Source: Gloeopeniophorella convolvens (Eukaryota; Basidiomycota; Agaricomycetes; Russulales). Taken from it: DNA of 14,109 nt. Below, one piece after another: positions 168 to 13,947 of this stretch. The number at the start of each line of letters is the position of its first letter. Position 1 is the stretch's first letter. A program made the translations under genes and the position numbers. Location: positions 1 through 14,109 of the forward strand of contig WTXD01000267.1 of assembly GCA_022496205.1 (NCBI GenBank), written 5' to 3'. The notes beneath the pieces were generated by a model. The model ran no database searches. It had not been told where the DNA came from and saw only the letters and a program-made list of their open reading frames with translations.

Positions 168-749
168 ATGCGCAAATGCTGCGCGTTTGCCGAGAATCGA
201 CCGTACATTCAACACACTCTTCCCTTGCCCACCCTACGAGTCCTCTCTCTTGACCTTCCTTTTGACAGGTGGGACCTCTCACAGTGGTGTGACATCTCAC
301 GGAATCTTCCAGGGGTCGAAAGGCTGATGGTTACGGGAGACCTTGCTACTTCATTTCTGACGCAGTGTACCCCCTATGAGCTAGGTGGTTGGAGGTCTCT
401 CCGAACTATATGGGTGGGTCTGGGAGAGGAGTATAGCTGCGCCATGCCGGAGATCATTGCGGAGGCATCTATAACATGGTTGAGATTATACAAGAAAAGC
501 CCATTACATCCTCTGATAATCTGGCTCGATGACATAGATGGATACTTGGATTTGGGTTGGGTTGACCAGGCGAGGGCATATACTGAGGTTAAGTTCCACG
601 CACGAAGCTCAAGTTTTAAATGTTATATAGTCACTTCTCGGGATGTTTCTGGTCGACGCGTGCGTTCTCCGTCCTCTATTCTGGTATCGCCTAATGACAG
701 CACTCCAGATTTTTGTAGAAAGAATGGGCCCAAGACCAATGGAGGATGA
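168..749 (+). CDS. Hypothetical leucine-rich (F-box/LRR-like) protein fragment
   Basis: An open frame of 193 codons begins at an ATG, with an in-frame TAG eight codons upstream (144-146). The first two thirds have the spacing of leucine and aromatic residues seen in the leucine-rich tails of Agaricomycete F-box proteins: LPTLRVLSLDLPF, then NLPGVERLMV, then WRSLRTIWVGL. No F-box is visible, so this could be the 3' part of a larger gene whose first exons lie left of the window, or a decayed fragment. The last 40 or so residues are basic, serine-rich and unlike the rest, which suggests the true end was lost or an intron is misread. No mobile-element motif is seen. The family assignment is inference from composition only; function unknown. 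Confidence 0.35.
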   Translation: MRKCCAFAENRPYIQHTLPLPTLRVLSLDLPFDRWDLSQWCDISRNLPGVERLMVTGDLATSFLTQCTPYELGGWRSLRTIWVGLGEEYSCAMPEIIAEASITWLRLYKKSPLHPLIIWLDDIDGYLDLGWVDQARAYTEVKFHARSSSFKCYIVTSRDVSGRRVRSPSSILVSPNDSTPDFCRKNGPKTNGG

Positions 750-1088
750 TTGGGACTGGGAACACAACCCTGTTTCATAAGTCATCCACTTCCCGAAATC
801 ACACACACCTGGGAGTCGTCAAGTAGGAGGCTTGTCGCATGTTCTTGCAATCCCAGGTCGTTGCACTGGTGTCTCAGGGTCTCGATCCGATTGTATGTTA
901 TGTACACCTGTTGAACTTCGAATGACCATTACATCCAAGTTATACCATGACACACAGAGCACCGCCCAGTGCAATATACCTACGGTTGATCTAGCCGGAT
1001 GCGCTTGAGATTTGGGACAGTCTAAGAGACATACATTTGTTGCTATGGTTGTCAATAGGTATCGTACGCGATTGCGAATGGTATAAGA
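750..1088. other. Flanking DNA without a recognisable gene
   Basis: No convincing coding frame or RNA gene is seen here. Short open frames exist on both strands but lack family features. The last bases before the LTR are GGTATAAGA. There is no purine-rich tract directly before the LTR start, so this is not the inside edge of a 3' LTR. Confidence 0.5.
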
Positions 1089-1346
1089 TGTTGAGACGGA
1101 CAGTGTCCTGGCGGCTCTGATTAGATTAGATATGGACCTAATGATCAAGGACTATCTTATCTTGTGTACATAATGTTCTAGACTTAAGGCTGTGTTCAGC
1201 CCCACATTCGTTTCCATAATTCTGGACTATTCTAGGGCATTCCATGACCCACCTTGTACTCCGGTACCCACTCTTACTCCGTTTCATGTGGGTCTCCTAG
1301 GCTTTCTAAGCAGTGTTTATCACATGCTATCTGTCGCTCCTTACTG

Positions 1347-1386
1347 TATATAAGGACCTCTTTCTTCGCCTCTGTAGCCTCAGTCT
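1347..1386 (+). promoter_or_regulatory. LTR1 core promoter (TATA box plus initiator)
   Basis: TATATAAG lies at 1347-1354 and a CCTCAGTCT initiator-like motif has its A at 1382, 35 bp from the start of the TATA box. The same spacing recurs in the other LTR families of this window. Sense orientation agrees with the copia pol attached to the homologous LTR at the right end. Confidence 0.65.
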
Positions 1387-1543
1387 TTTGACCTTCTCTG
1401 ACTGAGGCAAGTACACTACCGCTCCTTTCACTTCTACCTTATGCTTACCCTACCTTGTAGCGTCACTCTGTGTCCTTCAGGTATTGCACTAATGTATAAG
1501 TCTTTTGACCTTCTCTGACTGAGCGTCACTCTGTGTCCTTCAG
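1382..1543 (+). repeat. Partial tandem duplication inside LTR1
   Basis: A 25-bp block beginning AGTCTTTTGACC occurs at 1382-1406 and again at 1499-1523. A 20-bp block, CGTCACTCTGTGTCCTTCAG, occurs at 1461-1480 and again at 1524-1543. The first pair has a 117-bp period. The LTR at 13571-13939 carries only one copy of each block, joined as in the second unit here, so one form derives from the other by recombination between the 25-bp repeats. Confidence 0.85.
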
Positions 1544-1683
1544 TTGTCACTCCACCCTCTGCTGCGCTTCAACATAAGGCTGTGCTCAGCCCCACATTCG
1601 TTTCCGTGTTCCGGACTCTTCTAGGGCATTCCATGACCCACCCTGTACTCCGGTACCCACTCTTACTCCGTTTCATGTGGGTC

Positions 1684-1688
1684 TCCTA
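1684..1688. repeat. Target site duplication, left copy (TCCTA)
   Basis: TCCTA directly precedes the solo LTR start TGTCACG. Removing the solo LTR and one TCCTA restores a sequence identical to the uninterrupted region of LTR1 around 1300, which proves the insertion point. Confidence 0.93.
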
Positions 1689-2340
1689 TGTCACGAACAC
1701 TAGGGCTTCAAGGAGGTCAAACTGCTCAGAACACTAGAGCGAACCCAGCCCTACTGGTAAACACCTTACACGTCGCCCACAATGCGACGCGTATCACTCA
1801 CATTACGACTACAAGTCAAAATGCATCACATGACCCCTCACCCTCATTCCTCGCCCTACTCCCTAATGGCCAATTAACCCTGGAATACCCCCAAGATCCC
1901 GGACTAGGGATCTCTCAGAATGGCCATATTACTCATCCCAAAGTAACCAGAACCTTGATCAAGGTGAAACACTTCATGCATCCTCTTTGGGACTCTGATC
2001 ATCAAGAACTCCATGGGGCCTCAAGCCCCACTTTGCGATGGAATCTAAGAAGCGCATCAGAGAGGAGAGGTTATGGGGAATCCCCTCTGGAATCCCCATC
2101 AGTAATTAAACCAGATTTGTCTGGGGGGTCTCCAGTAGTATATAAGACCCCATGTATCGCCCAGTGGTCCTCAGACTGTCCATCTGTGGCACTCTCATCT
2201 GTACCTAGCACTGCAATCCAGCACTGTTAGTGTGTTCCCCTCCGCTCCTGCTATCGCAGCTCATCTTCTGTTCTACCCCCTTAACGCTCTCCAAATACCT
2301 GCTATCCTCTCTGCGCGCACTCCGCAAGTGAGTCCTGACA
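1689..2340 (+). repeat. Solo LTR of the TGTCACG...CTGACA family
   Basis: The 652-bp block begins TGTCACGAAC and ends CCTGACA (5-bp terminal inverted repeat TGTCA/TGACA). It is flanked by TCCTA on both sides and is closely related along its whole length to the 654-bp block at 9351-10004. Many differences between the two are C/T or G/A changes at CpG, in both directions. A TATA box at 2139-2146 and a CTCAGACT motif near 2173 give it plus orientation. No internal region is present, so it is the remnant left by recombination between the two LTRs of a full element. The 180-codon open frame crossing it is not a gene. Confidence 0.93.
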
Positions 2341-2345
2341 TCCTA
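2341..2345. repeat. Target site duplication, right copy (TCCTA)
   Basis: This TCCTA follows the solo LTR end CCTGACA and continues directly into the remaining part of LTR2. Confidence 0.93.
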
Positions 2346-2615
2346 GGCTTTCTAAGCAGTGTTTATCACATGCTATCTGTCGCTCCTTACAGTATATAAG
2401 GACTCCTTTCTTCGCCTTTGTAGCCTCAGTCTTTTGACCTTCCTTGACTGAGGCAAGTACACTTATGCTCCTTTCTACTTTCTTATACTTACACTACCTT
2501 ACAGCGTCACTCTGTGTCCTTCAGGTATTGTTGTAATCCAGTCTTTTGACCTTCCTTGACTGAGTGTCACTCTGTGTCCTTCAGTTGTCACTCCACCCTC
2601 TGCTGCGCTTCAACA

Positions 2616-2859
2616 TGTAGTCTTCCTCTGTTGGTCCCATATCGTTCGGAGTCGGCCTTGGCTCCGGCGAGTAGGGGTTGCCGTCCGAGTCAACATGGAA
2701 GGAGGGAGGGGGCGATGGACGATGGTGGGCTTCTTCGAACACTTCAATCTCTTCTTGCGTCGGGAGGGTGAGGTGTCCACTGCTGGGGTTCTTGGGGGAC
2801 ACTACCTCGTACTCGGGCAAGGGGGAGGCGGTCTTGACGGTGACTTGGTGGGTCGACAT
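2616..2859 (-). pseudogene. 5' fragment of a second gypsy-type gag (gag B), cut by LTR2
   Basis: An open frame starts at an ATG in good context (CACCATG, 2857-2859) and runs 81 codons before entering LTR2, where LTR sequence adds 11 foreign residues and a stop at 2581. The peptide is hydrophilic and rich in P, S and E, as in the N-terminal part of basidiomycete gypsy Gag proteins. No zinc knuckle is reached. It lies downstream, in minus-strand sense, of the 3' end of the chromovirus, so it could be the start of a second tandem copy sharing that LTR, or of a related element. I see no clear similarity to the N-terminal part of gag at 9349, which may itself be incomplete. The Gag assignment is inference from position and composition. 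Confidence 0.5.
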
Positions 2860-2998
2860 GGTGCAGTAGAGGGAGTAAGTGATTCAACGAGAGAGAGAGG
2901 TCCAAAGGGCTTGTCTGGCGAGCGGAGAGTACGTCGTGGTAGAACTAGGGGTTCTGGTCTTCACAGTGGCGGTCTTGTCTTGCTTTTAAGGACAATCG
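2860..2998 (-). other. Probable untranslated leader of gag B
   Basis: No coding frame is seen. The stretch lies between the gag B start codon and the terminal TGTCA of the adjacent LTR-like block. It contains purine-rich GAGAGAGA on the plus strand. I see no tRNA-type primer site starting TGG directly after the LTR edge. Confidence 0.4.
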
Positions 2999-3129
2999 TG
3001 TCACGGACGCGTCTTTTCGAAGGATTCCTGGACCACCTAGCAGGCTTGAGCCTTCACTGCTAGATGAGTAATCAAAGAAGTGCTAAAAGTACATATTCCA
3101 CGGAATTATTTCCTTTGCGTTAGGTGCAG

Positions 3130-3257
3130 GCTTACGTAAGCTGCATATGATGACACGTGACTCGTCTTGTGACTCATCCCGTGGGATACTAGGGTTAGAA
3201 TGGGCCGGAAGGGCCTAGAGGCCATGGACTTTGGGTTGTGACGTCATGGTGACGTCA
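3130..3257 (+). promoter_or_regulatory. Cluster of bZIP/bHLH-type palindromic sites in the putative U3
   Basis: Within 130 bp are TTACGTAA (3132-3139, inside the 12-bp palindrome GCTTACGTAAGC), CACGTG (3154-3159), TGACTCA (3170-3176), and two TGACGTCA sites at 3239-3246 and 3250-3257, one helical turn apart. These match the known sites of Yap1-type, bHLH, Gcn4/AP-1 and ATF/CREB factors. Degenerate relatives follow near 3281 and 3301. All lie upstream of the plus-strand TATA box at 3411. Confidence 0.55.
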
Positions 3258-3410
3258 GTAGTCTAGATTGTGCTGCGCATGATGTCATCGCTGAGTGAGC
3301 ATGACGTAGTGTGGGAAACTGGCTTAGTGAGTGTGAGTAAGGTGCATCAGTCAGCACCAAGTCGCTCAGTCAGCAGCTGTGGAGTCGCTTAGTAAGCGCT
3401 CCTCTAATAG

Positions 3411-3450
3411 TATATAAACCCATGTAGTTGCGCACTTAGGTCCTCAGACT
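3411..3450 (+). promoter_or_regulatory. Core promoter of the 2999 LTR-like block
   Basis: TATATAAA lies at 3411-3418. CCTCAGACT has its A at 3446, exactly 35 bp from the start of the TATA box, as in the 1089 and 9351 LTRs. It points right, away from gag B. Confidence 0.6.
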
Positions 3451-3467
3451 TTCCTCTTGAGGACCAG

Positions 3468-3525
3468 GTAAGAGTGCCAACAAGCCTCTCTGTAGTAGTA
3501 CTACAGTTCTAATCTTGAGGACCAG
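3468..3525 (+). other. Possible 58-nt intron in the LTR leader
   Basis: ACCAG|GTAAGAG is a strong fungal donor. TTCTAAT is a fair branch site, followed by an acceptor ending CCAG at 3525. The length is typical of basidiomycete introns. The 13-mer TCTTGAGGACCAG stands at the end of the upstream exon (3455-3467) and again at the 3' end of the intron (3513-3525). Confidence 0.4.
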
Positions 3526-3582
3526 ATTCTTCTACAGTTTGACTCCGTCGTCGCTGCCTTGCACAAAGGTGGTCAAGTTGAC

Positions 3583-3820
3583 GATCGCTCCTGTGTTTCT
3601 GGTTGGCGCAAGACTCTGCTCTGCGCGAACGCCTCGCCGGTTGTCTCAACAACCTTCCTTTTGACCGTACTGGTGTTGTGCGGAGTTGGAGCTCCCACCA
3701 CAAATCGCTCCAATGGTTACTCCGGTGATGATCAGGATGCTGAGAATCCCACTTGCGATCAATCTGATGGTGAAAGGGGACAAGGACATGGCAGAAAGGG
3801 GCAGTGAAATGATGAAATTA
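3583..3820 (-). other. Probable U3 edge of the chromovirus 3' LTR
   Basis: In minus sense this stretch follows the polypurine tract directly and begins TAATTTCATC. If the expected TGTCA start has changed to TTTCA, the LTR would begin at 3817. No second copy exists in the window to confirm it. The plus-strand open frame here (3559-3807) has no support. A GGTTGT/ACAACC hairpin lies at 3639-3654. Confidence 0.4.
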
Positions 3821-3831
3821 CCCCCCCTTCA
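3821..3831 (-). other. Polypurine tract of the chromovirus, overlapping the pol stop
   Basis: On the minus strand the pol stop TGA (3831-3829) runs straight into AAGGGGGGG. A purine run directly before the 3' LTR is where plus-strand DNA synthesis starts in LTR elements, so this fixes the 3' end of the internal region. Confidence 0.8.
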
Positions 3832-4347
3832 AGAGTAGCGTCGTCCCCGATGATTCAGCGGTCCGACTGCCTCCGAAGAGGATCCAGCGGCTCCAGGATG
3901 AGCCGAATGATAAGCTAAGATTAGCTCAGGGGCATGGATGCCGGAGGCTTTGAGCCATTGATTTTCCGCTTCTGGGTATCTCAGCCACTTGACCAGGTAT
4001 TCCAGACTTCGTCGGCCTCGTCCAGACCATCTGGAGTTCCGTATCGCTTTAACTTCGTATTCTTCTTCATCTTCTACAAGTTCCGGGGGTGGTCGGGTGT
4101 AGTTCGGGCCGTGTTCCCTTGTTTCCTTGTAGGGGGAGAGAAGCGACGCATGGAACACGTTGTGGATCTTCATGTGACTCGGAAGACCCAGTTGAAACGT
4201 TACTGGTGAGAGTTTCTGCTCTATCTTGAATGGACCGTAGCGGTGAGGGGCTAGTTTTGCGGTGGGAAAGGCTGTGCGGAGATTTGTGCCTTCGAGCCAG
4301 ACCTCTTCTCCTCTGAGAAGGTCGGTAGCTGTCCACCTGCCTTCCGC
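3829..4347 (-). pseudogene. Pol C-terminus: GPY/F module and chromodomain
   Basis: This frame carries the end of the integrase. It has the GPY/F signature HRYGPFKI, followed by the conserved HNVFHASLLSPY, then an acidic linker, then a chromodomain with YEVKAIRNSR and LEYLVKWLRYPEAENQWL. Chromodomains at this place define the chromovirus branch of Ty3/gypsy elements and steer integration to marked chromatin. The aromatic residues of the binding cage appear partly kept (Y of YEV and W of VKW; the usual E-N-T-W is E-N-Q-W). It ends in TGA at the polypurine tract. A one-base loss near 4347 puts this part out of frame with the integrase core upstream. Confidence 0.88.
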
Positions 4348-5291
4348 TTCATCATCGATGCTGTCCATTCTAGAGCCTTCCTTGTGTTCCGTCGGAGCTC
4401 CTTGATGTGGTCTAGGTGTTCTGTGATTCGGGGTATTGCTGAGACGGTTCCTATCGGCCAATCATCAACAGGATGATACCCCATCAGTGCTTTGAAGGGG
4501 GACCGGCCGATGGCTGAATGTTCCCAGGAGTTGTGGGTGAACTCCGCAAAGGCCAGCCAGTCCGCCCAGTCATCTTGTCGCCCATTGACCCAGAAGCGAA
4601 GGTACTGCTCCAGCTGCTGGTTCACTCGCTCAGTCTGTCCGTCCGTCTGTGGGTGGTACGCTGTGCTGATGCTCTGACTGATCCCCAGACGCTTGCAGAG
4701 CTCCCTAGCGAACGCTGATGTGAACTGAGGGTCCCTGTCCGAGATGATGCGACGGGGGAGCCCATAGTGTCGAAAGACATGGTCCAGGTAGAGCTTTGCC
4801 ACTCCTTCAGCCGAGATCGTCTCTTGACAGGGGATAAAGACCGCCCCTTTTGTGCAGTCATGGTCAACAACCACCAGGATTGAGTCGTATCCTTGCGAGG
4901 GTGGTAGTTTGACAATGAGGTCCATGGAGACTACCTGAAAAGGTCTGGCGTCTGGATTGGCATGGAGGGGCATGAGCTCAGGTCTTGGACGGTTTGTCTT
5001 CACCTTCATTGCTTGACAATCAACACATTCTGACATGTACTTCTTGACAAAGTCATTGAGACCGCTCCAGTCCCAGTGTCTCCTTAGGAGTTCCATCGTT
5101 TTTGCTACTCCTGGGTGTCCTGCAGTTGGTCGATCATGGTAAGCCTTCGTTAGATCGCGTCGTAGTTCCTCCTCCTCTGGTACCCATATCTTCCCTCGTA
5201 GCGTTACCCAAAGTCCGTCTGGTCGTCTTTCATATCCGCTTGGTATCTCCTTTGCTGCGTCCTGCGCTTTTCTAATTCGTTCCTCTATGGT
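4347..5291 (-). pseudogene. Pol integrase (zinc-binding domain and D,D35,E core)
   Basis: The zinc-binding domain has the HHCC residues (AYHDRPTAGHPG, then CVDC). The catalytic core shows the triad: D in VVSMDLI (codon 4922-4920), D in RIISDRDPQF, and E in DGQTERVNQ, with exactly 35 residues between the last two. GYDSILVVVDH and AYHPQTDGQTER are typical of Ty3/gypsy integrases. The domain would insert element cDNA into the genome. It stays in the same frame as RNase H but is separated from it by TGA at 5292-5294. All catalytic residues are kept, so the element was probably active in the fairly recent past. The core is open from 5291 to the frameshift near 4347. Confidence 0.93.
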
Positions 5292-5915
5292 TCATGTTCC
5301 TTCTAGCATCGTTGCATGGACGAACATTGATTCTGGTAGCAGTACGATGTCCTCATTGTCCTTTGATCCATCATCATGGTCCGGCCGTCTTGAGAGCGCA
5401 TCAGCGGGGGTATTGGTCTTCCCAGGGACGTGTTGAAGTACGTACTCGAAGGGGGATAGGTCCTCATGCCAGCGAGCTTGTCGCCTCGAGAGTTTTCGAG
5501 GGTCCTTGAAGTAGAGGAGGTTGCGATGGTCTGTGAGGACGGTGACCGTGTGTTTTGCCCCTTCAAGGTAATGTCTCCATTCCTTAAACACGTTGACGAT
5601 GGCTAAGAGTTCCCGGTCGTAGATGTCATAGTTCCATTCTGCTGAAGAGAAGGACTTGGAGTAGTAGGCTACTGGGTGACGCTTTCCATTGTCTCCTGGC
5701 TGCGATAATACTGCTCCAGTGGCAAAGGCTGACATGTCCGCTTCCATGAAGAAGGGTCGTTTATGGTCCACATGTCGAAGGACTGGTTTGGATGCGAACG
5801 ACTCCTTGAGCTTCTCAAAGGCGGCCTGTTGCTCCGGCCCCCAGCGCCAGGGGACGTCGTCCTTGGTGAGATCGTTGAGTGGTCGAGCGATCTTGCCAAA
5901 GTCCTTGATGAAGTG
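5292..5915 (-). pseudogene. Pol RNase H
   Basis: The frame shows the RNase H acidic residues in order: D in FFMEADMSAF, E in DRELLAIVNVFKEW, D in VLTDHRNL, and D in TPADALSRRPD. Conserved flanking motifs are AYYSKSFSSAEWNYDIYDRE and PFEYVLQHVPGKTN. This domain removes RNA from the RNA-DNA hybrid made by the neighbouring RT. The part before FMEAD includes the RT-RNase H tether with PLNDLT and PWRWGPEQQAAFE. It is bounded by two TGA stops: at 5916-5918, where other gypsy elements have arginine (FYR), and at 5292-5294. Frame is unbroken across both, so simple base changes explain the damage. Confidence 0.92.
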
Positions 5916-6895
5916 TCAGTAGAAGTTGCCAAAACTGAGGAAGGATCGTACATCCTTCACCTTGCGAGGTACTGGCCAGTCCTGAATGCCTGCGAGTTTG
6001 ACTGGGTCCATCTCCACTCCTCCATCCTTGAGGATCATGCCGAGGTATTCTACCGCTGATTGCTCGAATTGACACTTCTCCAGCTTGAGATACAGGTCGT
6101 TCGCCTCGAGCTTGTCCAGGATCCTGTGTACGATCTTGTGATGTAGTTGGAGGTTGTCTACTGTTGCAATGAGGATGTCGTCCATATAGATAATCACCAG
6201 TCCACTGTCAATTTCCTCCTTGAACAGGGCGTTCATCATAGTCTGGAATGTTGCCGGGGAGTTGGTGAGGCCGAAGAACATGACCAGAGGCTCAAACAAG
6301 CCTTGATTTGTTTTGAAGGCGGCCTTCTGCTGGTCTCCTTCGCGGATACGAATGTTATTGTACCCCATCGCACGTCGAACTTGGTGAAGATCTTCGCATG
6401 GCATACTTGATCGATGAGTTCTTCAATCAAGGGCAGTGGATAGTGATTCTTCACGGTGTACTTGTTCAGCTGGCGATAGTCTTGGACCGGGCGGAGCTTT
6501 CCATCCTTCTTTTTGACAAAGAAGAAGGGGGATACGTAGGGCGAGTTCGAGGGACGTATATAGCCTTTGTCAAGATGCTCCTTTAGGAACTTGTCCAATG
6601 CTTCCTGCTCCAGGGGTGACAATGGGTAGACCTTGCAGTTGAGCTCTTGTGGGGCGTCCTCCTTGAGATCTATGGGGTGATCCCAGGGTCGAGGCTCAGG
6701 GAATCGCTGAGCCGCTTCCTCGCTGAACACCTTGGCGTGTCATTGGTATTCCTTGGGTACCATCTCCTCGAAGGTACGCTCCTTTTTATCCGCTGCCACC
6801 TCCGCCATCTGTTGTGCTTGAGTAGTTCTTCTAACAGTAACCTTGGGGACCAGTCGAACGTGGATTTCATCACCTTCTTCTATATCTAGGGGTCC
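5916..6895 (-). pseudogene. Pol reverse transcriptase
   Basis: The reading frame covers the RT fingers, palm and thumb. In order it shows [14 protein letters not shown] and [25 protein letters not shown], the first catalytic D in [20 protein letters not shown], the YMDD box (6188-6177) and the thumb motif VRSFLSFGNFY. It copies element RNA into DNA. Two defects are internal: TGA at 6740-6742, before HAKVFSE, where relatives have arginine; and a one-base loss in the TGGGG run near 6364, which shifts frame between VRWG and YNNIRI. A further frame change near 6890 separates it from the protease. The catalytic aspartates are all intact. The domain ends at TGA 5916-5918. Confidence 0.93.
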
Positions 6896-7499
6896 AGCCC
6901 TTGGTCATGCAGTAGACGTTTTGCGCCGCCTCTTGATGCCATTCTTGTGGTGCGTACACCTCCAAGACTCAGATTCCTCCCTTTCTTTGTGCTGGTCGTG
7001 GTTTCCAGTACATTGCCCTGGGGGCAGTGAGCGAGATGGGATAGAAGTTGTCTGTGATCTTCCGTTCCTTCCACTGGATGAGTGGCTCAAAGTAAGCCAG
7101 CCAGGGATATCCGAGGATGATTCGTTCGCCCCCTATACTGGAGACATAGAATCGCTGCATCGTAGTTCGAGTTCCTGCCTCAATGGTGAAGTCGGTGAAG
7201 TGGGTGATGTCCCCTGCCTTGTTTCGGGTTCCATCCACGTTGCGAATGATGCGCGGATTTTCTAGTTTCTGGACTGCAAGTCCTCGTTGTTTGACCACCT
7301 TCCAGTCGATGATGTTGTCGGTTGCTCCGCTGTCGATTAGGGCAATGTCGTCGACCCGTTTTCGTTCGCTTCGAATGTAGACTGGTACTCGAATAGCATT
7401 GGTAGTGTCTACAAATACATCTTTAGCGAACAGTGCCTGAGGGAGGGTCGTATTCCTCAGGCTAACAGAAAATCCGGGTCGTCTTGCATCAACTTGCAA
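6896..7499 (-). pseudogene. Pol protease (retropepsin) and linker to RT
   Basis: The frame overlaps the end of gag by 43 nt in the -1 frame. The active-site motif ALIDSGATDN has its aspartate about 56 residues in, and a later IILGYPWL is the conserved retropepsin flap/C-terminal glycine motif. A single aspartate motif is expected, since these enzymes work as dimers and cut Gag-Pol. The first codons of the overlap use TTG, not ATG, so entry should be by -1 frameshift from gag. TGA at 6969-6971 breaks the frame, which continues (VYAPQEWHQ) to about 6895, where a +1 change leads into the RT frame. Whether the gag/protease offset is programmed or a mutation cannot be told from one copy. Confidence 0.88.
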
Positions 7500-9349
7500 A
7501 AGGCTTCTTTTTCTTCGACTGAGGCCTGGCGGATAACGGCTGCCGCTTCTGTTATGCCAAGCTTGGGGGGCGTCGTAGGGGTAGAGGAGGACGCCTCCTT
7601 CTTGTCCGCATGGGTGAGATTGATCGTGATCTCCGTTTTTCTCTGCCTTCCATTGTTCTGGCCACTCGTCGGCCTTCCCCCTTGACCTTGTCGCTGAGGA
7701 CAGTTGCGGACAATGTGGCCTTGCTTATCACATTCGAAGCACCTTCCTTCGCTCCTGAACTTCTCTCTTTCGGCTGCGGGGAGCTGCTTGCGCGTATAAG
7801 TCGTATTTTGGCGCGTTTTGACCCCTTCTTCATCCTCCATGTAGAGGTGATCGACGTCCATCGCGTTGTGTCGGTGGTATTGATTTTGAGGACGGACTTG
7901 GAGCTTGTACTTGGGCTGGAAGCGATCCTCAAAGATTTTGTTCATCCAGCCATGGGTGTCGTTCTGTTTGAGTAGCTCAGTTCGCCACTTGTCGAAGGAC
8001 CAGGGCTGTGGTCCAAAGGGGGTGCCAGTTCGAGCCGTAGAGAGGACTAGAGAGCAAGGGAGTCCCTTGAGGAACCATTTGAGGACTTCATCGCGATTAA
8101 TGTCTTCTCCAGCGTTGCTTACAGTGGTCCTGAAGCGTCCAATGTACTCTTCGATTGTTTCGCCTTCAGTCCCCTTCCTGCTATCCCTCCGGATCATCTC
8201 AAAGGTCTCGAGAAGCTTCTTCGCCTTCCGAGCGGCCTCGTGGTCCGTGAAGTGGGCGTCTGCGTCGTCTCTAAAGGTCTTCCAGACATCTGCGATGCTG
8301 ATCGTTTGGTCCTTGACCTGGCGGAGCCACTCTTGCTCATCTTGTACCCGCTGATTGATGATGGGTCCCTCCATGAGGTTGAGCATGAGTGCGACCTTGC
8401 GGATGGGGTTTACCATCGCGTCATGTCCATCATTGAGGAAGCACCAGTTGTCGAACTTTCTGGTGAACTCCTTGTAGTGCTTACTTGCTCCGTCGAACTT
8501 TGTGGGGGTGTCCCCATCAAGTCGCCCCTGTCTTCCAGCAGGAGGGGGAGGAGGCGGCTGTTGGGCTGCTTGCTGCGCCAGCTGAGTGGTTTGCGTCGCT
8601 CCTACCACTGTTGTTCCCTGCCCCTGCTGTGGGGGTGGGTTTTGCAGGTTTTGTGCTGGTCCGGACATACTTGCAGTGTGGATTCGGATGTCGGAGAGTC
8701 GCTGAGTGATTTCCTCAACTTGCTGTTTGTCTAGGTGTTCTTCAGCCTTTAGGAGATTGGTGAGGGCATCTCCAAGGATCGGGAAGTTGAGGGCTTCGTA
8801 GTATTCTCTGATCTGCTGCCTGGTGGGGACACCATCTTCTCTAACTGGGGTGTGATACTCCCACCCTCCTCCTAGGCGAGGATCGAGGTATCTCCACTGG
8901 TAGTTGACTAGTACAACTCGGTAGAGGCTGGTCTGGGGTTGTTCGTTTTCTTCCCAGTCAACCTGGACGTGATACCCTAGTTCCTGGTTCCAAAGTATTC
9001 ATGGTCCTTTAACCTCTTCTGGTAGGTCGTCAGGAGTCGGTGCGGTCCTCGGGTCAGCTGTGGGCTCTTCAGAAGCTTGTTCTAATGTCACGGGTGGAGT
9101 AGAGGCGACTCCGAGCGACGAGGGTCTCGAGGTGTGACCCACTGAGAGCCGAAGCTGACTTGTCTCGAGATCGGTGAAGTCGTGGTTCAAAGGGAGGCAA
9201 TCGGCCTCGGGTACATCGATAGAGAGCTGAAGTCCGTCACCTTGCTTGGGAGCGAATCCCTCAGGTGGTATCCTTGTAACCTCATCGATTGACAAAGGAG
9301 AACAAGCTTAGGGCCCGTCTCTGGTATCGAGTGTGTTTAAATACAGGCG
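7457..9349 (-). pseudogene. Gag polyprotein of the chromovirus, 5'-truncated, with premature stops
   Basis: One minus-strand frame runs from 9349 to the stop at 7457, broken only by TGA at 8999-9001 and TAA at 9308-9310. In order it shows a P/S/T-rich N-terminal part, a segment with VQVDWEENEQPQTSLYRVVLVNY, a P/Q-rich stretch near 8600, the conserved Gag core (KFDGASKHYKEFTRKFDNW, then IEEYIGRFRTTVSNAG), and a CCHC zinc knuckle (CFECDKQGHIVRNC) near 7710. Gag forms the particle that packages element RNA. No ATG in good context is seen at the upstream end, and the frame runs into the LTR at 9351, so the true start was probably separated by that insertion. The knuckle is followed by a basic stretch as usual. 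Confidence 0.9.
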
Positions 9350-9350
9350 G

Positions 9351-10004
9351 TGTCACGAACACTAGGGCCTCAAGGAGGTCGAACTGCTCAGAACACTAGA
9401 GCAATCCAGCCCTACCAGTAAATACCCTACGTGTCGCTCACAATGCGACGCGTACCACTCACATTGCGACTACAAGTCGAAATGCATCACATGACCCTTC
9501 ACCCCCATTCCTCGCCCTACTCCCTAATGGCCAATTAACCCTGGAATACCCCCAAGATCCCGGACTAGGGATCTCTCAGAATGGCCATATTACTCGTCCC
9601 AAAGTAACCAGAACCTTGATCAAGGTGAAACACTTCATGCATCCTCTTTGGGACTCTGATCATCAAGAACTCCATGGGGCCTCAAGCCCCACTCTGCGAT
9701 GGAATCTAAGAAGTGTATCAGAGAGGAGAGGTTATGGGGAATCCCCTCTGGAATCCCCATCAGTAATTAGACCAGATTTGTCTGGGGGGTCTCCAGTAGT
9801 ATATAAGACCCCCATGTATCGCCCAGTAGTCCTCAGACTGTCCATCTGTGGCACTCTCATCTGTACCTAGCACTGCAATAGCACTGTTAGTGTGTTCCCC
9901 CTCGTATCTGCAATACTCGCAGCTCATCTTCTGTTCCCCCTCTGTGACGCTCTCCAAACCCTCTGCTATCCTCTCTGCGCGCACCCCGCGAGTGAGTCCT
10001 GACA
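9351..10004 (+). repeat. LTR of the TGTCACG...CTGACA family; probable 5' LTR of the ORF-bearing unit
   Basis: The 654-bp block starts TGTCACGAAC and ends CCTGACA, matching the solo LTR at 1689-2340 along its length. Flanking pentamers are GGCGG and TTTGG, so it is not a simple solo LTR. It is directly followed by TTTGGACAGTC, where a primer-binding site of TGG type would be expected after a 5' LTR. Together with its TATA orientation this suggests it begins a plus-strand element whose 3' LTR lies beyond the window. It separates the chromovirus gag from its start. Confidence 0.88.
9800..9840 (+). promoter_or_regulatory. Core promoter of the 9351 LTR
   Basis: TATATAAG (9800-9807) and CCTCAGACT with A at 9835 are 35 bp apart. 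Transcription would start near 9835 and run into the ORF-bearing unit. The last ATG before this point is at 9813, upstream of the predicted start; the next is at 10304. Confidence 0.6.
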
Positions 10005-10107
10005 TTTGGACAGTCTCTTACACCCTCTGATCAGCTGCGACCCCAGTGTCTTACTCTTACTCTGGAATCACTGCACCCCGGACTGCGCTCCTCTCGGACC
10101 GTACTAA
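10005..10107 (+). other. Leader after the LTR, with a possible primer-binding site
   Basis: TGGACAGTC begins three bases after the LTR end (10007). LTR elements usually place a tRNA-complementary site starting TGG here, but I cannot name a matching tRNA. The rest is pyrimidine-rich, with no ATG and no convincing coding frame, and ends at an in-frame TAA (10105-10107). Confidence 0.4.
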
Positions 10108-11569
10108 CCTCAGGCACTGATTCGCCCCTCGTCCTATCTTGACCTTGACGCTCCCACCTCTGGACCGTCCAACCCCCTTGACTACGGCACTCCCACTCGT
10201 GGACTGTCTCCTGAACTCCAGTACCCTCCTCTCGTCTCCACTCCTCATCCTCCGCCTACGCCTCGTTCTCCATCATATCATCCGCGCTCCCCATCCCCAA
10301 TCGATGTCGAACCAGGACAAATCCTTGACATTCTCACAGTACCACCTCGCTCTCCCTCTCCTCATCATTCAGCCTTCGACTTTCTAGTCCGCCTCAGAGC
10401 TCAATAGGTGCAAGAACGCTTTGCAGAAATAGTACGCACTTCAGCCATCCCTCAGTCTCCCACTCCTGGCCCCTCTCGCACTGGTGAACAAGCTCCCAGC
10501 CCCTTGGTCGAGCCTACTCCAGCCTCTCCTGTCGTATCCACTCCCCAGCCTCGCTTGTCGCGTTTTTCGCCTCTTTACTCCCCTTTGCATCTCTCTATCC
10601 TTGCCCCTTCTCCTCATCCTGCATCGTCGACGCATACTCCTGCGCTCGGTCCTGCTCCTGCTCCTACTCCTCATCTTGTACCAACTCCCATACCCTCACG
10701 AGCAGCGACGGTATCCCCTTTAATCTTCGCTCCCAATCCAGCACCTGCTCCTGCCCTTGAAATCCTAGTCGACGTCGCAGTCGAGCAAATCCCAGACCAC
10801 GCACCTCCTCCATACCAGGCTCCACCTCGTCGCTCTCCCTCCATCTCTGAGTTCAGTGAGGACCTCACTGACTACGCCGAGAACCACTTCGTTCTCCCTC
10901 GCCGTGCACCATCCCCTGACTGCGCTCACACCAACCACTACTACCACGAGTGCATCGCCCAAGTCCTACACGGTTATCCAGCAGCAACCGGCAACCATCA
11001 CCAGCCTTTCCACGTCCCTCGCATCAGCAGCGCCCTTTACTACCTCACCCACTTCGATGAATTCCTCCCTGAAGTACGCCCCTTCAGGTCGATCATCCTC
11101 CCCAAGCACTACATCACCATCCCTTCCATGCGCGTGAACAGAGACGGTCCACCATACGCACCACAACATATCTGTGCCGTTACTGTGTACGTTCCCCCCT
11201 GTCGAGCACTCCCACTTGGTGCCATCCGTTACGACTTCACCTACCACCTCATACATACCTTCAACAAACTTGCCTTCGGCACCCAACGACTCTACGAAGG
11301 AGCAAGAATTCCCCTTGCCATATCGACTTCCTCGACGGCCGCGTCCTCACCACTGAAGGCAACCTCCACTTCAACCACGGTTGCCTCATCCGATCGACAA
11401 CCGGTACTCCATCGTGAATGACGCCTGCAGCCTCTATCCCCACCTTAAACTCTTCACCACCTACGCCCGCGTTCCCAACAACATCAAGGAGATAGGCGAC
11501 GACCCCTTCCTTGCCCTCGACCTTAACCTCATCGCCATCGTTCAAATTCCGGTAGAAGAGTTCCTGTAA
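10108..11569 (+). pseudogene. ORF1 of the plus-strand LTR unit, unknown protein, frame-damaged
   Basis: A frame opens after TAA at 10105 and continues past TAG at 10405-10407 to about 11318. It then continues in a second frame (IDFLDGRVLTTEGNLHFNHG) and, from near 11390, in a third (DNRYSIVNDACSLYPHLKLF) to TAA at 11567. Both shifts fit one-base losses. The whole is about 485 codons. The first half is rich in P, S and T with PAPAPTP-type runs. The second half looks globular, with HYYHECIAQVLHGYPAATGN, PRISSALYYLTHFDEFLP and LPKHYITIPS. I recognise no family: there is no zinc knuckle, protease, RT or integrase motif. By position it could act as Gag, but nothing proves it. It has one in-frame ATG (11128) and no ATG near its start. 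Confidence 0.6.
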
Positions 11570-11594
11570 ACCAAGTCGAATACTTGTACCTGTA

Positions 11595-11652
11595 AATAGT
11601 ATCTGCCCAATTACTTTCTAGAGTGCGTAGCACCTCTGTGGGAGATACTATT
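11595..11652 (+). other. Inverted repeat between ORF1 and ORF2
   Basis: AATAGTATCT (11595-11604) is the exact reverse complement of AGATACTATT (11643-11652), with 38 nt between. The loop holds a smaller stem, AGAGTGC-GTA-GCA with CTCT after one bulged base. The structure fills the gap between the ORF1 stop (11567) and the first open codons of ORF2 (11655). In RNA it could mark a translation or splicing signal; this is inference. Confidence 0.45.
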
Positions 11653-11654
11653 GA

Positions 11655-13150
11655 CTCAGACTCGACTCAGTGGAAGCACCACCCCAAGTATTGCTTGAAG
11701 GACTCCACCTTATTCCTTACAACGACGACAATCGCCTAACCTTTGACCAAGCCTATCGACGCTTCTTCGACAAATACTATCAAGTCCTTCATCGTATTAT
11801 CCGACTCCAGTTCTACGACCCTCGCGCTCGTGTCCACGACTTTTCTACCGACACTCTAGTTCGCTCTGACTCTTGGCTCACTCCGGTTCTAACAAGACTT
11901 CGACGATCTCTCCCATTCGGACAACTCTTTGACAACGATCTATATCTCAGTCACTGGTTCAACGCTGAAAGGAACATTGTCCAAAGTGCTGTAGAAGAAC
12001 AGCACCTCTTTTGGTTCCTTCAACGACCTAGCGGTGTACGCTGGGAACCCATCCAAACCACCAACCTCTGGCTCGAACTCGAGCTCTTCTGGTGGAACAT
12101 CGTCCAAGTCCACAAAGAACATCTCATCGAGAAAATCCTTACCGGCCATCGAATTTACTATCTTGAACGCTTCATCACTACTCCGTACCAGACTCGTCTC
12201 CACTTCGCTCAACTTGTCCTACTTCAAGAAAACCCTCTAGTACCTCTCTACTCTATCCGCTCCGGCCCCTTCTGCAACTATACTTTGCACCTGCAAGACG
12301 CACATTGGATCATAAGTAATCCCTTGACCTCGACCTTGTCCAATCAAACAACGACTTCTTATATCCTATACCACGACGACCTCCTCTTATTCCTCCAGCA
12401 ACCCCTGAATCAGACATCGGAGAAAACAGTTGGAACAACGCCCCAAGCATCGTCAGCAACTTCAGCCTTGACGAAGAACAAGAAGCAACAGACAACGACG
12501 TCCCCAGCATCCACACTATCAGCGACCTCGACCTACAAGACACCAGTGACCTTACCGACACCCAGTATTTAGAGATCTAGTCAGATCCTCCTGTACCCTG
12601 TATTTTAGACTATCAGAGTCTTTCTGTCGCAATCCTGGCATCCAGACCTAATCGTTGACGGTCTCCCAGACACCATCCTCCGACACCACTACCCCAAGTA
12701 GCATTACCACCAGTACAACGTACGCCGACCCCTGAAGACCCAAGAAACCTCAGTAGAACCCGACTCATCGACATCCAACGTGATAACATTGCGCACCACC
12801 CAGAAATCATCTACATCAGCCAAACCTTGCCTACCCAAAACTACCTTGGTTTTCACAACTTCCGACGCTGGTGCAGAGAAGAATACAATCGTCGCCAACT
12901 CCGTATCATCAGTTTCCCCCACAATCTCCACGAACTCGCCAACTTTACTAGCGATCCTCTGCACTTTGAAGGCTATCTGTGGAAGCGATCTACAAGAATC
13001 TTTCGCGACCACATCAAAGAAGACTACGCCCACATCGAACGCCATTCTATTGATCGACGTCGTCCCATCCTTAACCACACTTTCACCATCACATATCATC
13101 ACAACGTCAACACCTACACTGTGCAAGTTGTAGGACTCCCTATCGTCTGA
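11655..13150 (+). pseudogene. ORF2 of the plus-strand LTR unit, about 500 codons without methionine
   Basis: One frame runs from after TGA 11652 to about 12322. There a one-base loss in ATCCC moves coding to the next frame, which then continues through TAG (12578-12580) and TGA (12656-12658) to a TGA at 13148. Its parts are: a globular, W/F/Y/L-rich region (LWLELELFWWNIVQVHKEHL); a P-rich then acidic S/D-rich tail (SNFSLDEEQEATDNDVPSIH); a P-rich linker; and a basic region (FHNFRRWCREEYNRRQLRI, HFEGYLWKRSTRIFRDHIKE). None of these matches a family I know. There is not a single ATG in any frame in this stretch, so any start must be non-AUG or by readthrough or splicing from upstream. It may have been two proteins; continuity of frame favours one. 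Confidence 0.6.
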
Positions 13151-13160
13151 ATCACTCTTT

Positions 13161-13598
13161 ATGAGTACCGAATTCCAAAGATACATCAAAGAGAACAATT
13201 GGAACGACCCTAGCCCAGAAGAAATCACTGACATCTCCCGACATCTACCTCCCGGAAGCATTATTAGGAAAATCAGACTTGACGAAGAAAGCGGACACGT
13301 CTATGCCATCGCCACAGTCCTTGGACGAACTCTCATCCTCGACGAGGCAACCAAGCAAACAGTTTTTACCACTTATCAAGTACCAGTCCTCGACGCACTC
13401 AACGCTTACTATCCACACGCCGATCAACTTCAAGGTTACGCCTGGGCGTCCTTAGAAGGACTTTACAAAGACAAGAAGGTCCGTTGGAACGAAGGAAGGA
13501 AGCGGTGGCAATACTTCAACAACCAACCAGTATACTTCGACCCTCCTAAACAAACACGTGTTGTACCACCTGTTGAAGCGCAGCAGAGGGTGGAGTGA
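13161..13598 (+). CDS. ORF3 of the plus-strand LTR unit, truncated by a copia LTR
   Basis: The frame starts at a true ATG (13161), the first ATG on this strand after 11418, ten bases past the ORF2 stop. The context (CTTTATGAG) is weak at position -3. About 136 codons are native. The frame then crosses into the copia LTR at 13571, which adds eight foreign residues and a TGA at 13596. The native part is hydrophilic and looks globular, with charged and aromatic residues (FQRYIKENNWNDPSPEE, GYAWASLEGLYKDKKVRW, RKRWQYFNNQPVYFDPP). Methionine occurs only at the start. No known family is recognised. The rest of the protein should lie beyond the copia element, outside the window. It is the only undamaged frame of the unit up to the insertion. 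Confidence 0.6.
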   Translation: MSTEFQRYIKENNWNDPSPEEITDISRHLPPGSIIRKIRLDEESGHVYAIATVLGRTLILDEATKQTVFTTYQVPVLDALNAYYPHADQLQGYAWASLEGLYKDKKVRWNEGRKRWQYFNNQPVYFDPPKQTRVVPPVEAQQRVE

Positions 13599-13939
13599 CA
13601 ACTGAAGGACACAGAGTGACGCTCAGTCAGAGAAGGTCAAAAGACTAAGGCTACAGAGGCGAAGAAAGAGGTCCTTATATACAGTAAGGAGCGACAGATA
13701 GCATGTGATAAACACTGCTTAGAAAGCCTAGGAGACCCACATGAAACGGAGTAAGAGTGGGTACCGGAGTACAAGGTGGGTCATGGAATGCCCTAGAATA
13801 GTCCAGAATTATGGAAACGAATGTGGGGCTGAACACAGCCTTAAGTCTAGAACATTATGTACACAAGATAAGATAGTCCTTGATCATTAGGTCCATATCT
13901 AATCTAATCAGAGCCACCAGGACACTGTCCGTCTCAACA
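13571..13939 (-). repeat. Copia 3' LTR, short form (LTR3)
   Basis: In minus sense it runs TGTTGAG...TTCAACA (369 bp) and begins directly after a GGGGGGA tract and the end of a copia pol. Its first 290 bp are almost identical to LTR1. It lacks the 117 bp between the 25-bp direct repeats of LTR1. The TATA box TATATAAG is at 13681-13674. Its outer edge interrupts ORF3 after ACCACC at 13570, so the target duplication should be CCACC; the partner copy lies outside the window. Confidence 0.93.
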
Positions 13940-13947
13940 TCCCCCCG
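13940..13947 (-). other. Polypurine tract of the copia element
   Basis: The minus strand reads CGGGGGGA directly before the LTR start TGTTGAG, the expected place for plus-strand priming. It lies 15 nt after the pol stop. Confidence 0.8.

Follow-up and report, generated by a model that had tools for sequence, protein, structure and literature searches.

An AUG-free coding leader in a Ty3/Gypsy chromovirus of Gloeopeniophorella convolvens, consistent with polycistronic leaky scanning

Introduction

In rice tungro bacilliform virus (RTBV), open reading frame (ORF) I starts at AUU, and the AUG-free ORFs I and II permit scanning over 900 nt (PMC5902531). Leaky scanning is also described there for retroviral spliced mRNAs, for example rev/env of simian immunodeficiency virus (PMC5902531). 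Here we analyze a 14,109-nt stretch of the Gloeopeniophorella convolvens genome (contig WTXD01000267.1, hereafter the window), in which the ORFs at 10005-13570 form part of the 5' leader in a ~10-kb Ty3/Gypsy chromovirus. As in RTBV and badnaviruses, successive coding ORFs without internal AUG lie ahead of gag or coat-pol, with what may serve as a weak start between them, but the distances differ, at ~900 nt in RTBV versus 3.3 kb in the chromovirus leader (4.1 kb to the canonical gag) (PMC5902531). The chromovirus further differs in being a long terminal repeat (LTR) retrotransposon with integrase and chromodomain, and because its leader has no AUG it also has no AUG-started short upstream ORF that could serve for shunting.

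Among LTR retrotransposons, Ogre elements have an ORF1 upstream of gag. Extra coding sequence between the 5' LTR and gag is common to plant Tat/Ogre elements and the chromovirus, but in Tat it is one ORF, which in the elements of moss and clubmoss is an additional RNase H, and the available part of the account reports no AUG avoidance (PMC10508981). Other fungal Ty3/Gypsy chromoviruses likewise have reverse transcriptase (RT), RNase H, integrase and chromodomain, and they have gag and protease, to which our element has weaker matches; some fungal elements are longer than 13 kb, and a figure legend lists a further ORF with no known function (PMC2864245). Unlike our element, the portion of that survey at hand makes no mention of AUG-free leaders or of non-AUG ORFs before gag (PMC2864245). 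Two Gag forms made by staggered starts are also known from gammaretroviruses, which have a CUG start in the leader; there the extended form (glyco-Gag) begins at the CUG, whereas in the chromovirus it would begin at a weak AUG and separate methionine-less ORFs lie ahead (PMC5778647). A first-pass annotation of the window knew of no fungal LTR element of this design, and we likewise found no LTR retrotransposon with an AUG-free coding leader in open-licence PubMed Central full text, although an earlier account in subscription papers or Repbase is possible. The comparisons below indicate that the leader is probably translated by RTBV-like leaky scanning through a polycistronic RNA, with non-AUG initiation.

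Results

ATG depletion in the window copy

Between 9835 and 13163 the plus strand has ATG only at 10304, 11057, 11128, 11418 and 13161, and from 11421 to 13160 there is none while CAT occurs 33 times; our recount gives exactly the figures first reported. The earlier claim that this lack goes beyond base composition also holds. Dinucleotide shuffling of 11421-13160 (2000 shuffles) gave a mean of 13.3 ATG and a minimum of 5 against the observed 0, the same test on 9835-13160 gave a mean of 26.8 and a minimum of 14 against 4, and a shuffle mean of 26.6 compares with 4 over 9817-13160; no shuffle reached zero ATG in the leader. CAT, by comparison, is at or somewhat above its shuffle expectation (33 versus 29.6 in 11421-13160; 70 versus 59.7 in 9835-13160). 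Among the 64 trinucleotides ATG has the lowest z in 10006-13160 (-5.2).

The desert in other copies

The genome search covered 36.7 Mb in 404 contigs and returned at least 42 DNA matches to ORF2, 30 of them full length. The 27 copies analyzed are the window copy and 26 others, with the full-length C285, C192 and C123 left out. In four of the 27, the ~3,340 nt that separate the last ATG of the LTR and the ORF3 ATG contain no other ATG. Successive ATG lie 3,333-3,344 nt apart at the same place in L010, L011, L013 and L021; in L013, for example, there is no ATG from 303 to 3642. Long ATG-free runs also occur in L017 (3,129 nt) and L019 (2,957 nt), both cut by contig ends, and in L014 (2,965 nt). 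The proportion of synonymous differences (pS) from L016 in ORF1 is 0.21-0.32 for L011, L019 and L021 versus 0.08 for L010 and L013. By this measure the four ATG-free copies span two diverged leader subfamilies, and the AUG-free state has therefore persisted since before that split.

Undamaged copies with a normal ATG frequency would, by the first-pass annotation, refute its reading, and the outcome was in its favor: from the transcription start up to canonical gag (2.6-4.1 kb aligned), 11 of the 27 copies hold only 0-4 ATG, the ORF3 ATG included, and 17-35 are present in the six most diverged (L029-L034), which were grouped as old after their identities were seen. Divergence alone is no predictor, since L019 and L020 differ from L013 by 9% and 13%, yet carry 0 and 5 ATG. 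The 26 copies besides L013 have 244 aligned ATG, of which 177 sit at L013 ACG sites and 19 are the ORF3 start. ATG gains that do not come from ACG, scored relative to L013, number 10 versus 147 CAT gains in the 20 younger copies and 38 versus 119 in the six old ones; such mutation counts are not independent because the copies share ancestry. In the part of the window copy aligned to L013 there are five ATG besides 13161 (10304, 11057, 11128, 11418 and 13303), and all five are at L013 ACG sites (ACG to ATG at 5 of 76 sites, with no other ATG gain). Judged from this alignment, the ATG within the window's desert are products of CpG decay at ACG sites. Strong CpG decay is seen on both strands of the old copies (ACG to ATG at 113 of 384 sites, CGT to CAT at 61 of 260), which would fit cytosine methylation of repeats.

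Leader genes

The leader contains ORF1, ORF2 and a third ORF, ORF2b, ahead of ORF3 (Table 1). No methionine occurs in translated ORF1 (L016, L017), ORF2 or ORF2b (both L016). The ratio of nonsynonymous to synonymous differences (pN/pS), pooled against one reference copy without a tree and with decayed copies included, is low in each (Table 1; 26, 26 and 24 copies for ORF1, ORF2 and ORF2b), as it is in the ORF3 N-terminal module (ORF3N; 0.24, 19 copies) and gag (0.11, 13 copies), versus 0.64-1.77 in the two other frames. Counts of variable columns give the same three-base pattern, barring L016:3214-3393 in ORF1 (19, 15 and 12 by phase, with no excess at third positions); the pattern is weak in L016:3514-3633 (7, 8 and 12). 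These substitution patterns show ORF1, ORF2 and ORF2b to be under purifying selection, and they look like real genes. The ORFs of the first-pass annotation are thus coding; ORF1 and ORF2 are longer in intact copies than it had them, and ORF2b was overlooked. None of the three has a Pfam match. A 206-codon frame overlapping ORF1 at 10727-11331 is open in L012, L019, L021, L029, L030 and L031, decayed copies included; purifying selection is not evident in the alternative frames when ORF1 is taken in full.

Near-cognate codons that could serve as starts are unchanged across copies, namely a GTG and a CTG in ORF1 (each in 24 of 24 covering copies), a GTG in ORF2 (26 of 26) and an ATT in ORF2b (25 of 26). 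The block at 11612-11705 is conserved at every codon position and is a candidate cis element for ORF2 initiation. All 26 other copies displayed keep the ORF2 stop as it is, with ORF2b in frame behind it. Since this conserved TAG has one constrained frame on both its sides, readthrough is an alternative route to ORF2b, and regulated readthrough from ORF2 is possible.

AUG avoidance beyond codon usage

Synonymous codons were shuffled in place (5000 shuffles) and off-frame ATG counted. For ORF1, ORF2, ORF2b and ORF3N together there were 0 off-frame ATG versus 12.9 expected (shuffle minimum 3), with ORF1 taken from L017 because it is ATG-free in that copy; ORF1 of L016 has 2 versus 4.1 expected (P 0.17). 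Taken singly, P was 0.005 for ORF1 (L017), 0.003 for ORF2, 0.04 (L016) or 0.06 (L013) for ORF2b and 0.02 for ORF3N. Off-frame ATG are at expectation in RT (15 versus 15.3), integrase (13 versus 13.3) and the capsid part of gag (gag-CA; 7 versus 6.3), and gag-pol of the same copy holds 62 where shuffling predicts 60.5. As far as sequence comparison can establish it, AUG avoidance is shown to act at the RNA level, to be strand-specific and to be lost in old copies.

Boundaries of the desert

The last common LTR ATG, at 9814 in 27 of 29 LTR matches, lies 14 nt downstream of where the TATA box starts and, being so close to it, precedes the expected transcription start. Over these 29 LTR matches, each spanning 400 nt or more, ATG density is 1.96 per 100 nt up to 9816 versus 0.13 after, and the upstream edge of the desert is sharp and coincides with the expected transcription start. 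No conserved AUG lies between that start and ORF3. The predicted transcript therefore contains no AUG exon, and none is available for the joining of an upstream AUG exon to the ORFs that the first-pass annotation had wished to see checked.

The ORF3 AUG is in a poor context (TTTATGA, with neither a purine at -3 nor G at +4), and it is present in 19 of the 20 other copies covering 13161. The next ATG in any frame is 807 nt past it in L011, L012, L013, L021 and L027; this second AUG, which the truncated window copy lacks, is in frame, has A at -3 and opens the canonical gag domain. In the 804-nt piece after the ORF3 ATG, zero ATG is also reached in 1.4% of 1000 shuffles. The desert had been placed at 9835..13163, stopping at the ORF3 start codon. 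The lack of ATG and the ATG at 13161 are as described, but the boundaries are not, as the last LTR ATG is 9814 and the ATG-free run resumes after 13161 up to the canonical gag ATG.

Relatives of the leader proteins

Protein searches with ORF3N-gag yielded 16 proteins (P0002-P0017), the second search scoring the best 7991 candidates. P0002 is 99% identical and the other 15 are 25-47% identical. Those 15 have 14 methionines in the 3576 residues between the first methionine and the gag methionine, versus 41 in 2175 after it (P 5.5e-8 by Fisher's test, with no correction for kinship); P0011 supplies 4 by itself, P0012 is a fragment, and P0016 and P0017 end before gag. When L013 is aligned with 12 of the 15, the first methionine does not vary. 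Given this Met-poor module and invariant first methionine in distant relatives, a gag in which a Met-poor module separates two possible starts seems to be old.

With ORF2 as the query, a large protein set returned one protein, 97% identical and on a 1.4-kb contig. Viral contigs gave no match for ORF2 or the gag part, and genome contigs none for the gag part. Among PDB sequences there was no match for the ORF3 module and one for ORF2 at E 0.91. The AlphaFold2 model of ORF2 is unusable (predicted local distance difference test, pLDDT, 32.5), and for the model of the ORF3 N-module (pLDDT 65) the best PDB fold match was at E 0.23, with none at E <0.001.

Identity of the element and its surroundings

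The ORFs at 10005-13570 are assigned to a chromovirus leader because of the spacing between ORF2 and RT and because other copies continue into gag-pol. These copies run past 13570 into gag, protease, RT, RNase H, integrase, chromodomain and a second LTR, the element order being LTR, ORF1, ORF2, ORF2b, ORF3-gag, pol, chromodomain, LTR. In 14 cases ORF2 and RT share a strand and lie less than 12 kb from each other on a single contig; 12 of these pairs are spaced 4.3-5.5 kb (one ORF2 start among these is extrapolated from a partial match) and 2 are at 8.2 and 11.1 kb. RVT_1, RT_RNaseH, Integrase_H2C2, rve and Chromo pass Pfam cut-offs in L013; Retrotrans_gag (19 of 24.1 bits) and gag-asp_proteas (25 of 28.2) fall below them, and a CCHC motif is seen in the L013 frame at 4962-5447. 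The second LTR is found 3' of the chromodomain in C47. The LTR has TG...CA ends and a short target duplication, and nested LTRs are flanked on both sides by the 5-bp duplications GATTA (L009) and GAAGC (L014). Directly 3' of the 5' LTR, where a primer-binding site would be expected, lies TGGACAGTC. The first-pass view of an ATG-poor, ORF-bearing LTR unit is thereby kept and extended, the unit being the leader of a gag-pol chromovirus and "ORF3" the N-terminal module of gag.

A non-autonomous element without RT was considered and dropped, since ORF3 continues into gag and pol. Different leaders on RT copies that lack a nearby ORF2 were looked for at four such places; the element match stops short of gag in L038 and L039, and contig ends are reached in L036 and L037. 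Members of the Caulimoviridae are defined by having no LTRs, no integrase and a movement protein. The present element has LTRs, integrase and a chromodomain and falls outside that family.

An inverted LTR from a different family (13571-13946) interrupts the window copy at 13570. Further copies of this second family are at 1087-1688 and 2341-2616; the inverted one is 99% complementary across 320 nt. A single LTR from the desert element's own family (1689-2340) is nested inside another of these copies. On the minus strand, 3829-8998 holds a different Gypsy chromovirus with pol split across several frames. Unlike the desert element, it has ordinary sense-strand ATG ahead of gag (9285, 9216, 9002, 8835 and 8769).

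Table 1. Features of the chromovirus copy, in window positions
Feature	Position	Strand	Remarks
5' LTR (TGTCACG...CTGACA, 654 nt)	9351..10004	+	repeat of 1689-2340; many LTR copies; single insertions elsewhere with 5-bp target duplications
TATA box TATATAA	9800..9806	+	start expected ~30 nt downstream (predicted)
ATG desert, R/U5 and polycistronic leader	9817..13160	+	0 ATG in four copies; the window's four ATG at decayed ACG
ORF1, 509-513 codons in L016, L017, L019	10030..11559 (approximate)	+	pN/pS 0.26; broken in window copy
Near-invariant block, ORF1/ORF2 junction and first ORF2 codons	11612..11705	+	L016:4317-4410, mapped via 4360 = 11655
ORF2, 308 codons in L016, L022	11655..12580	+	pN/pS 0.13; TAG at 12578-12580; window frame broken near 12300
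Second conserved block, ORF2 stop/ORF2b start	12548..12667	+	L016:5254-5373, mapped via 5287 = 12581
ORF2b, 189 codons	12581..13150	+	open in L010, L011, L012, L013, L016, L021; pN/pS 0.26; extra stop in window at 12656-12658
ORF3, weak AUG and gag N-terminal module	13161..13570	+	cut by inverted LTR here; homologues P0003-P0017

Discussion

AUG is avoided in all frames and on one strand, from the transcription start to gag and across constrained genes, and scanning is the simplest account of this. The transcript would start in the LTR just past the last LTR ATG, and from the cap onwards 40S subunits would scan ~3.3 kb kept AUG-free in every frame by selection. A minority of subunits may initiate at near-cognate codons to give the Met-less ORF1, ORF2 and perhaps ORF2b proteins, with ORF2b alternatively made by readthrough of the ORF2 stop. 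The remaining subunits would reach the weak ORF3 AUG and make an N-extended Gag, or leak past it through 807 AUG-free nt to the better-placed, in-frame canonical Gag AUG. The upstream coding ORFs are indeed free of internal AUG, as in leaky scanning of the RTBV type, and the account entails non-AUG starts for ORF1, ORF2 and ORF2b. The first-pass annotation had proposed just such an RTBV- and badnavirus-like plan, with non-AUG starts of ORF1 and ORF2 and scanning to ORF3, and AUG avoidance together with coding constraint now supports it; the RNA start, the non-AUG start codons, the scanning and the functions of the leader proteins are what we infer from these patterns.

Several observations count against this account. 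The scanning length that it needs, 3.3-4.1 kb, far exceeds the 900 nt of RTBV, and no single start codon could be picked for ORF1, ORF2 or ORF2b from the conserved near-cognates. ATG is not alone among odd trinucleotides in 10006-13160 (CCG z -4.8, CAC -4.0, ATC +6.3). Ten of the 27 copies, the window copy with 6 among them, carry 5-12 ATG and are not provably dead from their sequence. ACG to ATG in the younger copies (71 of 1438) is only moderately below CGT to CAT (78 of 1043). Additionally, a weakly structured leader was tried as the cause of the pattern and was not supported, the leader structure being no weaker than that of gag-pol (mean minimum free energy per nt -0.165 versus -0.172).

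Other routes to translation have features in their favor, yet each leaves part of the pattern aside. Splicing, by which introns would take the leader out of the gag mRNA or join an upstream AUG exon to the leader ORFs, seems unlikely to us. At the ORF1/ORF2 junction a stretch of ~100 nt (GTAAAC...CTCAG) resembles an intron by eye and is retained in the displayed copies. Its removal would join the two frames, but such a join supplies no AUG because R/U5 and the leader share none, a clean loss of the stretch was seen in none of the fetched copies, and splicing leaves off-frame ATG avoidance unexplained. Termination and reinitiation, in which the same ribosomes would translate ORF1, ORF2-ORF2b and gag in turn, has a precedent after long ORFs in cauliflower mosaic virus with its transactivator (PMC5902531), and the ORF2b stop lies only 10 nt upstream of the ORF3 AUG. 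We nevertheless consider it quite unlikely, as coding interiors free of AUG are not needed for it, a non-AUG start would remain necessary for the first ORF, and ORF1 and ORF2 are ~95 nt apart. Distinctly improbable is internal entry or shunting, with RNA elements placing ribosomes at the junction blocks and gag. The near-invariant blocks at the ORF1/ORF2 and ORF2/ORF2b junctions are what such elements might look like, but Rfam gives no match up to E 1 within 9351-13570, folding at the junctions is unremarkable (z -1.4 for the 11612-11705 block, then -1.0 and 0.0), and there would be no reason to avoid AUG inside ORF1, ORF2, ORF2b and ORF3N.

We give very little credence to a compositional by-product, whether of a C-rich and G-poor strand, of Met-poor, Pro/Ser-rich proteins or of an avoided DNA motif. 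G does make up only ~16% of this strand and the N-terminal half of ORF1 is rich in Pro and Ser, but the dinucleotide and synonymous shuffles and the ordinary ATG count of gag-pol contradict this explanation, and ATG is regained in decayed copies. Moreover, normal CAT numbers mean that no double-strand motif is avoided.

Leaky scanning thus remains our preferred reading of the leader. In its full form it would comprise three Met-free proteins (~1,000 codons) made from non-AUG starts only on one capped RNA, with scanning that extends as far as 4 kb to reach a staggered pair of gag AUGs, and it would mean that polycistronic leaky scanning arose apart from the plant pararetroviruses and at several times the RTBV length; we lean towards this fuller version with more reserve.

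If true, the G. convolvens chromovirus would be a polycistronic LTR retrotransposon in which ribosomes pass long coding ORFs by leaky scanning, a strategy that to our knowledge is otherwise confined to plant pararetroviruses. It would also offer an extreme example from nature of long scanning and of wholly non-AUG-started genes in fungi. The combination of coding constraint with an AUG desert may offer a way to find genes that are missed by annotation requiring an ATG.

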